Source: Akkermansia sp.
GTDB taxonomy: Bacteria; Verrucomicrobiota; Verrucomicrobiia; Verrucomicrobiales; Akkermansiaceae
NCBI GenBank assembly: GCA_017504805.1
Contig: JAFVQN010000050.1
Span: forward strand, 1-47,737
DNA length: 47,737 bases
Reading direction: 5' to 3'
Every line of letters begins with the position of its first letter. Position 1 is the first letter of the stretch. Made by a program: the position numbers and the translations under genes. Below the pieces are notes generated by a model, which was given only the letters and a program-made list of their open reading frames with translations, ran no database searches and was not told the DNA's origin. Shown here piece after piece: positions 13,928 to 20,030 of this stretch.

Positions 13928-13956
13928 TTGACAAAAGTGTTAGTCAGGACTAAACT
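13928..13956 (+). promoter_or_regulatory. Promoter of the feo operon
   Basis: TTGACA (13928-13933), 17 nt, TAAACT (13951-13956). The leader to feoA is about 30 nt and has no Shine-Dalgarno. Confidence 0.8.
13940..13953. promoter_or_regulatory. Palindromic operator over the feo promoter
   Basis: TTAGTC-AG-GACTAA is a perfect 6-2-6 inverted repeat that fills the end of the spacer and the first bases of the -10. A protein bound here would block RNA polymerase. The TTAG/CTAA half-sites recall DtxR/IdeR/MntR-type metal-repressor boxes, so an iron-responsive DtxR-family repressor is the natural guess. The regulator is not in the window. Confidence 0.6.
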
Positions 13957-13994
13957 CTGCCCGTCTTCTCAAATTAGCCACCTCTAACATTAAT

Positions 13995-14228
13995 ATGAAA
14001 CCTGAGAATCTGCGATTGAACCAGATAAAGATAGGCACGACAGTGCACGTGGTGAAGGTGCACGGCGAAGGGCCGCTGCGTCAGCGCATACTGGACATGG
14101 GTCTGACCAAGGGAGCCGAAGTGCAGGTGCGAAAGATGGCACCCTTCGGCGACCCGCTGGAAGTGACAGTGCGGGGCTTTGAGCTGTCGCTGCGCAAGGC
14201 AGAGGCCGCCTGCATCGAGGTGAAATAA
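13995..14228 (+). CDS. feoA: Ferrous iron transport protein A (FeoA)
   Basis: A 77-aa SH3-like cytosolic partner of FeoB, needed for Fe(II) uptake. It shows the FeoA pattern: [16 protein letters not shown], then [22 protein letters not shown]. It opens the operon, 29 nt ahead of feoB, behind the promoter with the palindromic operator. Confidence 0.95.
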
Positions 14229-14257: not shown

Positions 14258-17020
14258 ATGAAACGCACCATAGCACTCGCCGGCAACCCGAACAGCGGCA
14301 AGACCACGCTGTTCAACGAGCTGACCGGTGCGAACCAGTACGTGGGCAACTGGCCCGGCGTGACCGTGGACCGCAAGGGCGGCCACCTGACTGAGCACGA
14401 GGAAATCGAGCTGCATGACCTGCCCGGCATCTATTCCCTTTCCCCCTACTCACCGGAAGAGGTTGTCTCCCGCCGCTACCTGCTGGAGGAGAAGCCGGAT
14501 CTGGTGGTGAACGTGGTGGACGCCACGAACCTGGAACGCAACCTGTACCTGACCTCCCAGATTATGGAGACAGGGCTGCCCATGATTATTGCGCTGAACA
14601 TGTGCGACCTGCTGGCCGCCGAGGGCAGCAAGATTGACACCGCCACGCTGAGCGCCCAGCTGGGTTGCCCGGTGGTGGCGGTGAGCGCCCTGAAGCAGAC
14701 CGGCATGGCCGACCTGCTGCAGCTCATGACCGGCCCCCTGCCCGCCGCCCCCAAGGTGCTGACCTATTCCGCCCCGGTGGAAAAAGCCGTGGAGAAGGTC
14801 ATGGCGGAATACGGGGCCACCCGCTTCGAAGCCATCAAGATGCTGGAAGGCGAGGAGCTGCTGCAGAAAGGCGCCAGCAAGGTAAAGGCCCACGCTCTGG
14901 AGGATATCCGCATGGAGCTGGAAACGAGCATGGATGACGATGTGGCCTCCATCATCGCAGGCAGTCGATACGATGCCATCTGCGCCTTCATCCCGCAGGT
15001 TCTGGTGCAGCAGCCAGCCCGTGAAAAATTCTCGCAGAAGGTGGATGCCGTTCTGACCCACCGTGTGGCGGGCCCCATCATCTTCGTGGCGGTCATGTAC
15101 GCCATCTATTATCTTTCCATCAACACCGTGGGCGACTGGGGCACCGGCTGGGCCAATGATGTGCTCTTCGGGCCGGTGGTCGGGGGCTGGCTGGCCGGCT
15201 TCATCGGCAACGAAGCCGCCGGAGTGGAAGCTCTCACCATGTTCAGCGCAGTGCTGGCCATGATTCTGGTGTTCCCCGACATGCTGCGCCGCCTGCATGA
15301 TCTGAACATGAACGGAGCCTGGCTCTATATCATGGTAGCCCCCTTCGCAGTGGAATACGTCTGCCCGCACCTGCCCGGTTTCCTGCACAATGCGCTCATG
15401 GCGGTGCTCGGCGTAGCCAATGCCGTGCTGCTGGTGTTCTGCCTTGCAAAGTCCGGCACAAAGGGAGCCAACAACTTTGGCAGCCGCACGCACAAGTTCT
15501 GTGCCAACCCCATGAAACTCACGGGCCGCGCCGGTCGCAGCGAGTTCATTGCCTGGTTCATCATCATGAGTCTGGTGACCTTCGGCGTGGCCATGCTGGG
15601 ACGCACCGGTCTGAATTGCTCCCCGCAGCTGCAGGCCATCATCACTGATGGTATCGTGGCAGGCGTAGGAGCCGTGCTGGGCTTCCTGCCGCAGATGGCC
15701 GTGCTGTTCCTGCTCATGTCCATCCTGGAGGACTGCGGCTACATGGCCCGCGTGGCCTTCATGCTCGACCGCCTGTTCCGCACAATCGGTCTGAGCGGCA
15801 AATCCGTGATTCCGCTGATGGTATCCATGGGCTGCGGCGTGCCCGGTGTCATGGCGACCCGCACCATCGAGAACGAGAAGGACCGCCGCATGACCATCAT
15901 GCTGACCACCTTTGTGCCCTGCGGTGCCAAGCTGCCCATCCTGGCCCTCATCGGCGCCATGATTGGTCAGACTGCCACCATTGCCACTGTGGCTTACTTC
16001 GTAGGCTTCGGCTCCGTGATTGTGGGCGGCATGATGCTGCGCAAGATGCACATGTTCGCCGGTGGCTACACGCCCTTTGTGATGGAGCTGCCCGCCTACC
16101 ACATGCCCCAGGGCGCCAATATCAACCTGCGGGCCATGGAGCGCTGCAAGGCCTTCGTGCAGAAAGCCGGTACCGTCATCTTCCTGGCCTCCGCCCTCAT
16201 CTGGACACTCTCGAACTACACCTGGAAGTTTGAATACCTGAACACCGCCGAAAACGAGGCTGCTGTGGAACAGAGCATGCTGGCCGACACCGGCAACACC
16301 TTTGCCCCGCTCTTCACCCCGCTGGGATGGGGCGACTGGAAACCCGCCGTAGCCACGGTGACCGGCCTTATCGCCAAGGAAAACGTGGTGGGCACCTTCG
16401 GTGTGCTCTACCCCGCCCAGGAAGAGCCCGCAGCTGAAGGCGAAGCCGCCGCTGAGGAGGAACTACCCCGCAGCCTTGACATCACCAAGACCAATGCCCT
16501 GAGCGCTCTGACAATGGCTGCCTGGCAATGCGACCCTGCCGCCCGCACCACCTTGCCCGCAGAAGCCGCAGCAGAAGAGGAAGAAGCCGAGGAAGAAACA
16601 GCCGCCGTTGAAGAAGGAGAAAAGAGCTTCATGGATTATGTGAATGCCGCCACGGCCTTCCTCTTCCCCGAGGTGGAGGAAGATGAGGAAACCAGCGGCG
16701 TGGCCGGAAATGTACGTGCAGCCGGGGCCTTCACGGCACTGAGCGCCCTCTCCTTCATGCTCTTCAATATCCTGTGCGCCCCCTGCTTCGCGGCCTGCGG
16801 AGCCATCCGCCGCGAGATGAACAGCGCCCGCTGGACCTGGTTCGCCATCGGTTACATGTGCCTCTGGGCCTATGTGGTAGCCTTCATCACCTACCAGCTC
16901 GGGCTCTGGATTACCGCCGGCACCCTCGGTTCCGCCCAGGTATTGGCAGGAATCATGCTTCTGGGCATCATCATCCTGGCGCTGCGTCCGAATCCGTACC
17001 GACAGCATATCAGCAAGTAA
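14258..17020 (+). CDS. feoB: Ferrous iron transporter FeoB with a DUF805-like insert
   Basis: This 920-aa inner-membrane Fe(II) transporter is longer than usual FeoB (about 700-800 aa). The N-terminal G domain is intact: GNPNSGKT (9-16), DLPG (54-57), NMCD (114-117). Core pore segments are present, including [24 protein letters not shown] and [20 protein letters not shown]. Between the first membrane segment and the gate region lies an insert of about residues 330-440 holding [21 protein letters not shown] and [12 protein letters not shown]. These are hallmarks of DUF805 membrane proteins but in permuted order. A second insert (about 720-800) is very Ala/Glu-rich and probably disordered. It is followed 24 nt later by the Cys-rich FeoB partner. 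Confidence 0.95.
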
Positions 17021-17044: not shown

Positions 17045-17194
17045 ATGGCAGACGTCATCATCATCCTGATTCTCCTGGGCGCAGCAGCTCTCGCCATAAA
17101 GTCCTGCCTGCGTAAAAGCAAGGAAGGCGGCTGCCCTGGTGGATGCAGTGGTTGCAGCGGCAATTGCGGCTGCAGCAGGAAAGACAGGAAGTAA
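17045..17194 (+). CDS. FeoB-associated Cys-rich membrane protein
   Basis: A 49-aa protein, short enough to be missed by length cut-offs. Residues 4-18 are one hydrophobic helix (VIIILILLGAAALAI), followed by a basic stretch and a tail with seven cysteines, six of them in CPGGCSGCSGNCGC. This is the layout of the FeoB-associated Cys-rich membrane protein family found next to feoB in many anaerobes. The cysteines could bind iron or an Fe-S cluster at the transporter mouth; that function is inferred. It starts 24 nt after feoB and is surely in the same operon. Confidence 0.85.
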   Translation: MADVIIILILLGAAALAIKSCLRKSKEGGCPGGCSGCSGNCGCSRKDRK

Positions 17195-17269: not shown

Positions 17270-18466
17270 ATGAAAAAAACGAACATAATCGCAATGGCAC
17301 TGGCCGGGCTCATCACCCTGCCCGTGATCGCAGCGGAAGCCTCAGAGCCGACGGCAGGAGACATTCTCCAGGGTATCAACATGTTCACCCCTGAGGAAGG
17401 CGACCCTGCCTGCAAGGTAAAGGCCAATGAAAAGTACGGCACGCAGTGGGCCGTAGACACGGCCTATGGCTTCTGGCACAGCAACAACGCATCTGCTGAT
17501 GTGCACGACGATGCCCACCTGTTCCTCATTCACGCCCAGCTGAATCAGCGTCTCATTGAAAACAATGTGCACGGCGGCACCTGGCTGCGCGTCGAATTCT
17601 CCGGTTCCTGGGGTCTGGATAAAGATTCCGCCCAGTCCAGCTACATGTTTACCGAAGGTACCGGCAGCGCCACCGGAGCACACGCCGATATCTACGGAGG
17701 GCACGACGGCGTGCTCCCGGAGGTAGCAATCATGCAGTATTTCAACAACAAGCGCTCCTGCGTCATCGCCGGCATGGTGAATCTCACCAACTACTTCGAT
17801 TCCGTGGGTATTGCTAATGACTCATTCTCCGGCTTCACTAACGATGGCTTCATCAATTCCTCCGTGCTCGGTCTGCCGGATGCCAACCTCGGCATCGTTC
17901 TCCAGCACGAGATCGACGCAGACAGCTACGCGATGTTCGCCCTTTCCAGTGAATCCACCGGGTACGGCGACAATCCCTTCAAGTTCCACGGGAACGACAG
18001 TTTCCTGCTCGTGGGTGAATATGGCCGCATGATTCTGGATGGCACTGTTACCATCCGCCTCAATCCCTTCTACCGCTACATCGATAACATGGATGGCACC
18101 AGCAGCAATAACGCCGGTATCGCCGCCAGCATCGAGTACGAAGTCTGCGACGCCCTCACCGTATACTCCCGTTCCGGCTGGGCAGCCAGGCAGGAACTCG
18201 GGAATGGCTTCGATTTCACCTGCGGTGCCAATGTGAAGCTCATTCCCTCCCGCGAGGATGACTTCCTGGGTGTTGCCTTCGGTGTGTTCAAGGGAGCCAC
18301 CCCCAACGAAAACGACCGTGAATACGTTGCAGAGGCTATGTACAGCCTCCAGCTGAATGACTACTTCAAGCTTGTCCCTCACATCCAGTACATCTCCAGG
18401 CCCTCCTACGATCCGAACAACAGCGACGTGGTCATCATGGGAGTTCAAGGCGTATTCTCATTCTGA
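17270..18466 (+). CDS. OprB-like outer-membrane porin (first of two)
   Basis: A 398-aa protein with a signal peptide (basic MKKT, hydrophobic 5-20, cleavage near IAAEA) and a predicted beta-barrel. Alternating hydrophobic strands and the end HIQYISRPSYDPNNSD...GVFSF, with a terminal Phe, fit the OprB carbohydrate-selective porin family. The barrel would let small solutes cross the outer membrane. Substrate is not predictable; location 75 nt downstream of the feo genes suggests iron-linked expression, perhaps by read-through, since I see no terminator between. It is paralogous to the next gene (shared GGTW and SGSWGLDKDSA-type stretches, QYFNNKR, VLQHEID). Confidence 0.8.
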   Translation: MKKTNIIAMALAGLITLPVIAAEASEPTAGDILQGINMFTPEEGDPACKVKANEKYGTQWAVDTAYGFWHSNNASADVHDDAHLFLIHAQLNQRLIENNVHGGTWLRVEFSGSWGLDKDSAQSSYMFTEGTGSATGAHADIYGGHDGVLPEVAIMQYFNNKRSCVIAGMVNLTNYFDSVGIANDSFSGFTNDGFINSSVLGLPDANLGIVLQHEIDADSYAMFALSSESTGYGDNPFKFHGNDSFLLVGEYGRMILDGTVTIRLNPFYRYIDNMDGTSSNNAGIAASIEYEVCDALTVYSRSGWAARQELGNGFDFTCGANVKLIPSREDDFLGVAFGVFKGATPNENDREYVAEAMYSLQLNDYFKLVPHIQYISRPSYDPNNSDVVIMGVQGVFSF

Positions 18467-18508
18467 TGTGACAAAATTTGTTGTGCTGTAACGTGTATTG
18501 CAGTAAAA

Positions 18509-18540
18509 GCCCCGTCAGGCAGTCGTGTACCTGGCGGGGC
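18509..18540 (+). terminator. Hairpin after the first porin, possible terminator
   Basis: An 11-bp stem (GCCCCGTCAGG with CCTGGCGGGGC, one G-U pair) with a 10-nt loop lies 42 nt after the stop codon. It lacks a U-run on the plus strand, so termination is plausible but not certain. The rest of the gap to 18791 shows nothing I can support. Confidence 0.45.
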
Positions 18541-18791
18541 AACCCTTTGCCCAGGCGTAGACGGGTAACTCGTAAATTCAAATTCCTGTTTTGCGGTTCG
18601 TCAAAACATCATCCGTTAATTGCCGGAGCAATAAATGACACCCCATGTGTCAGATTGCAGTCATCCGCACTCACCTCAATCTGCAGAGCTGGTGTACAGA
18701 CTCACTGCGCGTTCTAAACATGTAATTTTCAACAATTCACGCACCAGATGGGGATTTCTGCCCTCTTCTGCCATTTTTTCTGGTAAAATAC

Positions 18792-18820
18792 TTGCCATAC
18801 CTGTCAGGCTGTGATACAGT
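18792..18820 (+). promoter_or_regulatory. Promoter of the second porin; fixes its start
   Basis: TTGCCA (18792-18797), 17 nt, TACAGT (18815-18820). The longest frame starts at the TTG of this -35 itself, so it is wrong; ATG 18831, 10 nt after the -10 and followed by a good signal peptide, is the start. Confidence 0.6.
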
Positions 18821-18830
18821 GTGCTCACTC

Positions 18831-20030
18831 ATGAAGTTCAAAAACATTCTCCTCTCCCTGCTGGCGTTGTCCGGGCTCTGCAGCAGCCCCGTGACAGCAG
18901 AAACCTGCGACAGCTTCCACCGTTTCTATGATGGCGCTCTTCTCATCCCTGGGGACGATGCTCCCGCATACAAGCAAAAACTCTTTGACAAGACCGGAAC
19001 TGCCTTCACCGTCGAAATTTTCGGCGGCTACTGGGGTATTGACAACCAGTCTCCCAATTACAGCTCCACCAACTACCTTCTGCTGTATTTCAGCAGCCTG
19101 GACCAGCGCATCATCAAGGACGACGTCAACGGCGGCACCTGGTTCAACCTGGCACTGGCCGGTTCCTGGGGGCTTGACCACGACTCTGCCAGCCAGAACT
19201 TCTTCTACGATGCCGGCATGGGCATCGGCACAGGCCAGCACACCGACTCTGTCGGTCCCGCCGGCTTCTACCTCATGAATGCCACCCTGCGCCAGTATTT
19301 CAACAACAAGCGCACATGCCTGAACGTGGGCGCCATCTGGATGAGCATGTACTTTGACCGCATCAGCCATGCCCGTTTTGCCAATGATGCTTTCGAAAAA
19401 TCCCCGGTTCTGCCCATGTACTACGGCACGCCCGGTGCTGTGCTCCAGCATGAGATTGACCAGAATAATTTTGTGACCGCCGCCTTTATCGGCACCGGGC
19501 TTGGTCTGGGTGACAACCCGCTCAACTGGGACAACACGAACGGCTACGCTGTAGTGGGCGAATACGGTCACGTCTTCGCCGAAGGTAAAGGCACCTGGCG
19601 ACTGGCTTCCTTCTTCTGCGATATGGATACAGAGGGGAAGGACGGCAGGGAGCACCAGCGCCTCTCCACCGGCATCATGACCGGCGTGGAATACGATGTA
19701 AATGACAGCGTGAAGGTTTACGCCCGCCTGGCCATTGCCAGCAGCGAGCACCAGCGCGCCCGCAAGGAGGCCATGCTCGGCACCACCCTGCGCGTAATCC
19801 CCTCACGTCCGCAGGACTACTTCGGAGCCTGTGTCGGTGTCTACAAGTGCGCAGATACCGGCACGAAGGATCTGGTGAACGAATACGAGAAGGTCATCGA
19901 GTTGACCTATCGCTACCACGTCAACGACTACATCTCCCTGGCCCCGTTCTACCAGCTGTATATCGATCCCGCCTACCGCGACACCAGCACGGTGAGCGCC
20001 ACGGGCGTGCAGGCCCACCTGGCTTTCTGA
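18831..20030 (+). CDS. OprB-like outer-membrane porin (second of two)
   Basis: A 399-aa paralogue of the preceding porin. The signal peptide is MKFKNILLSLLALSGLCSS with cleavage near VTAE. Shared landmarks with the first copy include GGTWFNLALAGSWGLDHDSA, LRQYFNNKRTC, VLQHEID, GLGDNP and VIPSRPQDYFGACVGVYK; both end in a beta strand with terminal Phe (GVQAHLAF). It has its own promoter and a terminator after it, so unlike the first porin it need not depend on the feo transcript. Two diverged porins side by side suggest different substrates or conditions. Confidence 0.8.
   Translation: MKFKNILLSLLALSGLCSSPVTAETCDSFHRFYDGALLIPGDDAPAYKQKLFDKTGTAFTVEIFGGYWGIDNQSPNYSSTNYLLLYFSSLDQRIIKDDVNGGTWFNLALAGSWGLDHDSASQNFFYDAGMGIGTGQHTDSVGPAGFYLMNATLRQYFNNKRTCLNVGAIWMSMYFDRISHARFANDAFEKSPVLPMYYGTPGAVLQHEIDQNNFVTAAFIGTGLGLGDNPLNWDNTNGYAVVGEYGHVFAEGKGTWRLASFFCDMDTEGKDGREHQRLSTGIMTGVEYDVNDSVKVYARLAIASSEHQRARKEAMLGTTLRVIPSRPQDYFGACVGVYKCADTGTKDLVNEYEKVIELTYRYHVNDYISLAPFYQLYIDPAYRDTSTVSATGVQAHLAF

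Follow-up and report, generated by a model that had tools for sequence, protein, structure and literature searches.

A DtxR-family operator at feo belongs to an already known kind, and the closest described form is the site of the IdeR regulator of Saccharopolyspora erythraea. One IdeR dimer was found to bind a 14-bp half-site; the apparent KD was 78 nM when the site was a designed one and 102 nM when it was a natural half-site at a complex I promoter (PMC8464063). In the same study, published in 2021, this one-dimer 14-bp site, TTAGGNNNNCCTAA, was proposed as the redefined DtxR consensus, and the role of one-dimer 14-bp sites was left open. Gln43 was paired with the first C of CCTAA, Thr40 with its second base, and both Ser37 and Pro39 with the T. 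By counting, each repeat pair contacted by one IdeR dimer in that study corresponds to TTAG-N6-CTAA, and the classical 19-bp DtxR/IdeR box, TTAGGTTAGSCTAACCTAA, is composed of two such units overlapping by 5 bp.

The window analysed here, i.e. the whole stretch of 47,737 nucleotides of the Akkermansia sp. contig JAFVQN010000050.1, carries two separate TTAG-N6-CTAA units in front of feoAB. These are very probably operators through which a metal-loaded DtxR-type repressor controls feoAB, and the same motif recurs at iron and redox genes across the genus.

Promoter, operators and gene order of feoAB in the window

The feoA gene was located at 13995–14228 (plus strand; Pfam FeoA PF04023, E 1.3e-22) and feoB at 14258–17020 (plus strand; NCBIfam TIGR00437 above cut-off; Pfam FeoB_N, Gate and FeoB_C). 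The feo promoter (13928–13956, plus strand) consists of the -35 TTGACA at 13928–13933, a 17-bp spacer and the -10 TAAACT at 13951–13956. The preliminary description had reported a perfect palindrome across the spacer and the -10 of this promoter directly before feoAB, and both the sequence and the coordinates bear this out. Operator 1, TTAGTCAGGACTAA, is a perfect 6-2-6 dyad at 13940–13953 (plus strand) upstream of feoAB, and its unit, TTAG-N6-CTAA, overlies the spacer and the -10. No Fur box was seen at feo when the promoter was read.

Taken alone, the perfect 6-2-6 dyad is ordinary and at chance level: 14 such dyads were counted in the window, with 13.7 expected from the base composition. 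The TTAG-N6-CTAA unit occurred in 2 copies, 34 bp apart, with 0.19 expected from dinucleotide shuffles. The second copy was overlooked in the preliminary description. This operator 2, TTAGCCACCTCTAA, is an exact TTAG-N6-CTAA at 13974–13987 (plus strand), situated in the leader close upstream of the feoA ATG, and seven bases separate its end from the start codon. In the 2.04-Mb host genome, the exact unit was confined to feo and eno, its 3 copies being both feo sites and one site in the enolase promoter. The TTAG/CTAA pairs at all 21 spacings from 0 to 20 numbered 24 in this genome, about one per spacing, and therefore two sites within one 48-bp stretch before feoA, i.e. 2 of the 3 genomic copies, are far beyond chance.

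The FeoB encoded in the window is 920 aa long, with acidic Glu-rich insertions and a DUF805-like stretch at residues 318–408 (PF05656); the FeoB proteins of the A. muciniphila group are often about 750–770 aa long. A 49-aa ORF after feoB (17045–17194; MADVIIILILLG...CPGGCSGCSGNCGCSRKDRK) looks like a putative FeoB-associated Cys-rich membrane protein. Two tandem OprB-type porin genes follow at 17270–20030, the first of which occupies 17270–18466 (plus strand; Pfam OprB PF04966). The stretches upstream of both porin genes contained no operator, even with up to two mismatches allowed. The homologue of the first porin located beside feo elsewhere bears operators of its own (A. muciniphila, L247:4645 and 4790; G033, L287:902), which suggests an iron-linked outer-membrane porin.

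Conservation of the operators and their further targets

The comparison set consisted of 53 Akkermansia promoters immediately upstream of feoA, obtained from feo loci collected across the genus. The A. muciniphila-like genomes, which have a doubled feoA, were read separately from the other feo promoters. Many of the compared genomes are incomplete MAGs, and the nearest named loci to the window belong to Akkermansia MAGs of goat, water deer and other ruminants. The absence of the motif from the feo promoters of relatives had been named in advance as a result that would refute the iron-operator interpretation. The motif was detected in 53/53 promoters: G-TTAG-N6-CTAA was exact in 48 and had one mismatch in 5, and in every case its start lay 12 bases downstream of the -35 start. 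The TTGAC -35, the 17-bp spacer and a TAANNT-type -10 were likewise kept in all 53. In 45 non-redundant promoters, the columns of GTTAG, of TAA and of the final -10 T carried about 1.85–2 bits each and the C of CTAA 1.65 bits, with about 0.4–0.7 bits at the six inner bases of the operator. The dyad of the preliminary description is thus present, but the conserved unit is TTAG-N6-CTAA and not 6-2-6, since the inner TC/GA arms vary among the relatives and TTAG and CTAA are kept. Partial second overlapping units were seen in some relatives, e.g. TTAGTTTAGACTAA. The 7 order-level outgroup feo upstream regions contained no TTAG-N6-CTAA, even when one mismatch was allowed. As judged from the compared promoters, the conservation across Akkermansia removes doubt that the feo motif is real.

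The idea that conservation acts on an RNA hairpin was discarded, because part of operator 1, which shares bases with the -10, is left untranscribed. The inner six bases of operator 1 pair inconsistently, in 25, 16 and 15 of the 53 promoters.

Operator 2 was found in 39 of the 53 feo promoters (38 exact), 15–27 bp upstream of an ATG, and a C is the next base after 34 of the 38 exact copies. The distance from operator 1 to operator 2 is 26–34 bp, most commonly 29 bp, and 33–34 bp in the clade of the window. The two prevalent spacings are offset from each other by roughly half a turn of the helix, which makes two independently bound dimers appear likelier than a single fixed joint complex.

The same data bear on the explanation that operator 1 is a chance palindrome, derived partly from the -10 and kept only through the conservation of the promoter. 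Such an origin would agree with the chance-level number of 6-2-6 dyads in the window and with the TAA of CTAA doubling as the start of the -10. However, the GTTAG in the spacer, which is dispensable for sigma, is (nearly) invariant in the 45 non-redundant promoters, the second copy lies outside the promoter core in the 39 promoters mentioned, and further sites recur before eno and dtxR. A chance origin is effectively refuted by this conservation pattern and is hardly credible.

The host enolase site (TTAG-N6-CTAA at L002:1501–1514; G000 C133:5194) is located 35 bp upstream of enolase on contig C133, and a degenerate second copy lies 62 bp further upstream. Taken alone, the host enolase site is not beyond chance expectation. 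Of the 24 genus loci with a readable upstream region, the host included, 15 have an exact site before enolase, and the inner bases of these sites differ. One-mismatch sites numbered 76 in the host genome, which is too many for interpretation without conservation. One of them, TTTGTCTAAACTAA (host C9:1678), lies 4 bp before the copA ATG and is likely real, because exact sites precede the same gene in relatives (L217, L274, L290). Another, TTATGCTTGCCTAA (L017/L362:13–26; G000 C27, C27:13), lies 20 bp upstream of a Fur/PerR-like gene, which is followed by sufC and sufB, and it is possible that this site at the fur-suf cluster is real. Two-mismatch matches near contig ends (TTAATCGGGACTGA and the like) resemble an unrelated repeat and were dropped.

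Exact GTTAG-N6-CTAA sites were listed in 16 relatives, most of them were read in context, and Pfam matches and sequence similarity served to judge target orthology. According to a hand tally, 30 of the 71 distinct exact sites were at feo, and about 60 of the 71 were at feo or another recurrent or iron/redox gene. These recurrent or iron/redox genes, named by Pfam, were enolase, nuoD, a P-type ATPase with an HMA domain, AhpC, rubrerythrin, a NifU-like gene, an Fe-S flavodoxin-like protein, the divergent hemC and the feo-linked OprB porin. In the genome G114, the sites precede two short dtxR genes, a porin, feoAB, two P-type ATPases, nuoD, a flavodoxin and imelysin. For each of these two short dtxR genes, about 10 bp lie between the end of the site and the start codon, as would be expected under autoregulation. 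The expectation that the motif could be used to find the regulon was borne out, as it led to additional iron and redox genes and to the two short dtxR genes of the A. muciniphila group. Some of the targets, e.g. enolase and the P-type ATPases, fall outside the classical iron genes. The same operator appears to mark an iron and redox regulon across Akkermansia that is apparently undescribed; in a literature search covering few subscription journals, no described Akkermansia iron regulator or DtxR regulon was found. Two related genomes (L270, L283; G017, G020) have an exact site, TTAGAATCAGCTAA, some 20 bp upstream of parB, which may be a chance match shared by descent.

Candidate regulator and the sensed metal

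The search for a DtxR/MntR or Fur gene, recommended in the preliminary description, revealed a DtxR-family gene in the host and nearly all relatives. The host genome has one such gene, of MntR size, on contig C120. Its product matched PF01325 with 49.8 bits (cut-off 26) and PF02742 with 56.5 bits (cut-off 27), and it ends after the metal domain with no C-terminal SH3 domain. The PF02742 match was missing in G006, G035 and G045 although feo sites are present, perhaps due to the incompleteness of these genomes. In some genomes of the A. muciniphila group, a second, divergent feoB is accompanied by the gene of an additional DtxR protein of SH3 length (L089, L248; G048 C3). No TTAG-N6-CTAA was found within the 4.5 kb read around this gene pair in G048.

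Real operators could also be bound by a different protein, either of the MarR/SlyA type or the Fur-family protein encoded beside suf, which is considered unlikely. TTAG dyads are similar to sites of the MarR type, that of SlyA being TTAG-N4-CTAA, and Fur boxes belong to another type than TTAG-N6-CTAA. The likeness to TTAG dyads would speak for a MarR-type binder, and the presence of one Fur-family gene in the host genome, beside sufC, together with the lack of an operator upstream of the host dtxR gene, would also agree with another binder. In contrast, the N6 spacing is that of a DtxR dimer, each of the two dtxR genes in the A. muciniphila group has a site, and no neighbouring MarR or Fur gene was found for any exact site, with one one-mismatch site preceding fur-suf. 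The different type of the Fur boxes argues additionally against a Fur-family binder.

The recognition helix points to the DtxR-type protein as the binder. In Akkermansia, Pro39 is kept, Thr40 is replaced with Ser, and Gln43 with Ala, Val, Ser or Leu (IdeR numbering). In the Akkermansia operator, position 5 is mostly T, position 10 is mostly A or G, and CTAA is kept. As Gln43 is assigned to the first C in PMC8464063, the lost preference of the operator for the first C fits the lost Gln43 of the protein. The helix would thereby match the operator in a specific manner, Pro39 and CTAA being kept and Gln43 and the first C being lost, and this pairing provides a testable protein-DNA match.

MntR positions 8, 11, 77, 99, 102 and 103 were determined to be D, E, H, C, E and H in all the Akkermansia short proteins examined. 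As read from the sequences, the ligand set is mixed, with the Asp and Glu of MntR and the Cys of DtxR. The MntR-like proteins of the order-level outgroups have Glu at MntR position 99. The scores of the host protein were under the NCBIfam MntR cut-offs (75.8 vs 153 and 73.5 vs 138 bits) and under the NCBIfam DtxR iron-repressor cut-off (41.1 vs 290 bits). Its nearest solved structures are MntR proteins, and its best NCBIfam matches are also MntR.

The same operator and DtxR-family protein might therefore serve for sensing manganese, as in MntR, or both metals, and feo would then be a divalent-metal route. This possibility is a tentative one, to which the two retained MntR metal-site residues, Asp and Glu, and the MntR-like nearest structures and best NCBIfam matches lend weight. 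However, the Cys at the position of MntR Glu99 is as in DtxR, the targets are of the iron-limitation type (feo, flavodoxin, imelysin, NifU-like), no Mn transporter was found among the sites read, and the full NCBIfam MntR cut-offs were missed. Due to the nature of the target genes, Fe is favoured as the sensed metal.

Proposed repression and comparison with known systems

The interpretation of the feo dyad as a DtxR-type iron operator is well supported and rests on comparison, i.e. on the motif in 53/53 feo promoters, the presence of a regulator gene and the further iron and redox targets. We infer that the DtxR-type protein is the binder, acts as a repressor and senses iron. Repression is favoured over activation, because operator 1 overlies the -10. 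When the metal, most likely Fe2+, is sufficient, the metal-loaded two-domain DtxR-type protein would bind operator 1, and the dimer would cover the spacer and the -10 and exclude the polymerase. A second dimer on operator 2 would cover the start of the transcribed leader up to near the start codon, and feoAB, possibly also the downstream porin, would be repressed. When the metal is scarce, the protein would leave both operators and feoAB would be transcribed. With moderate confidence it is further proposed that an iron and redox regulon spanning the genus, in which enolase recurs, is run by one-dimer half-sites alone, and that the protein belongs to a distinct two-domain DtxR subfamily. The distinct subfamily is suggested by the recognition helix (Pro39 kept, Gln43 lost) and the metal site (Cys in place of MntR Glu99), in which the protein differs from MntR as well as from DtxR/IdeR.

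For Akkermansia, a much-studied gut commensal, there is now a defined operator together with a candidate regulator and a list of targets. Enolase as a recurrent target would link the metal status to glycolysis. The variant for which no description was found comprises half-sites as the standard of the genus, the lack of the flanking G/C, a two-domain regulator with mixed ligands and the enolase target.

Compared with the classical box, the Akkermansia feo promoters have two separate single units 26–34 bp apart, and the host operators TTAGTCAGGACTAA and TTAGCCACCTCTAA do not contain two units shifted by 5 bp. The two-domain size and the equivalents of Asp8, Glu11, His77, Glu102 and His103 are shared with the MntR of the Bacillus subtilis type. 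In contrast to the latter, the Akkermansia protein has Cys for Glu99 and Pro and Ser in the recognition helix, and its targets are apparently of the iron type.

The closest likeness is to the S. erythraea IdeR half-site, TTAGGNNNNCCTAA, which is also 14 bp long with TTAG and CTAA six bases apart. TTAG-N6-CTAA at iron-gene promoters, the form of the half-site, was found in 53/53 feo promoters. Complex I (nuo) is a common target of both systems, and one dimer per site, as bound by S. erythraea IdeR, is predicted for the Akkermansia operator of the same size. The flanking G and C of TTAGG/CCTAA, which stand on the inner side of the half-site, are not kept in Akkermansia, and its regulator, unlike S. 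erythraea IdeR, has neither the SH3 domain nor Gln43. Half-sites are an exception in the S. erythraea IdeR system, whereas Akkermansia seems to use one-dimer 14-bp sites (cf. PMC8464063) as its usual, standard operator.
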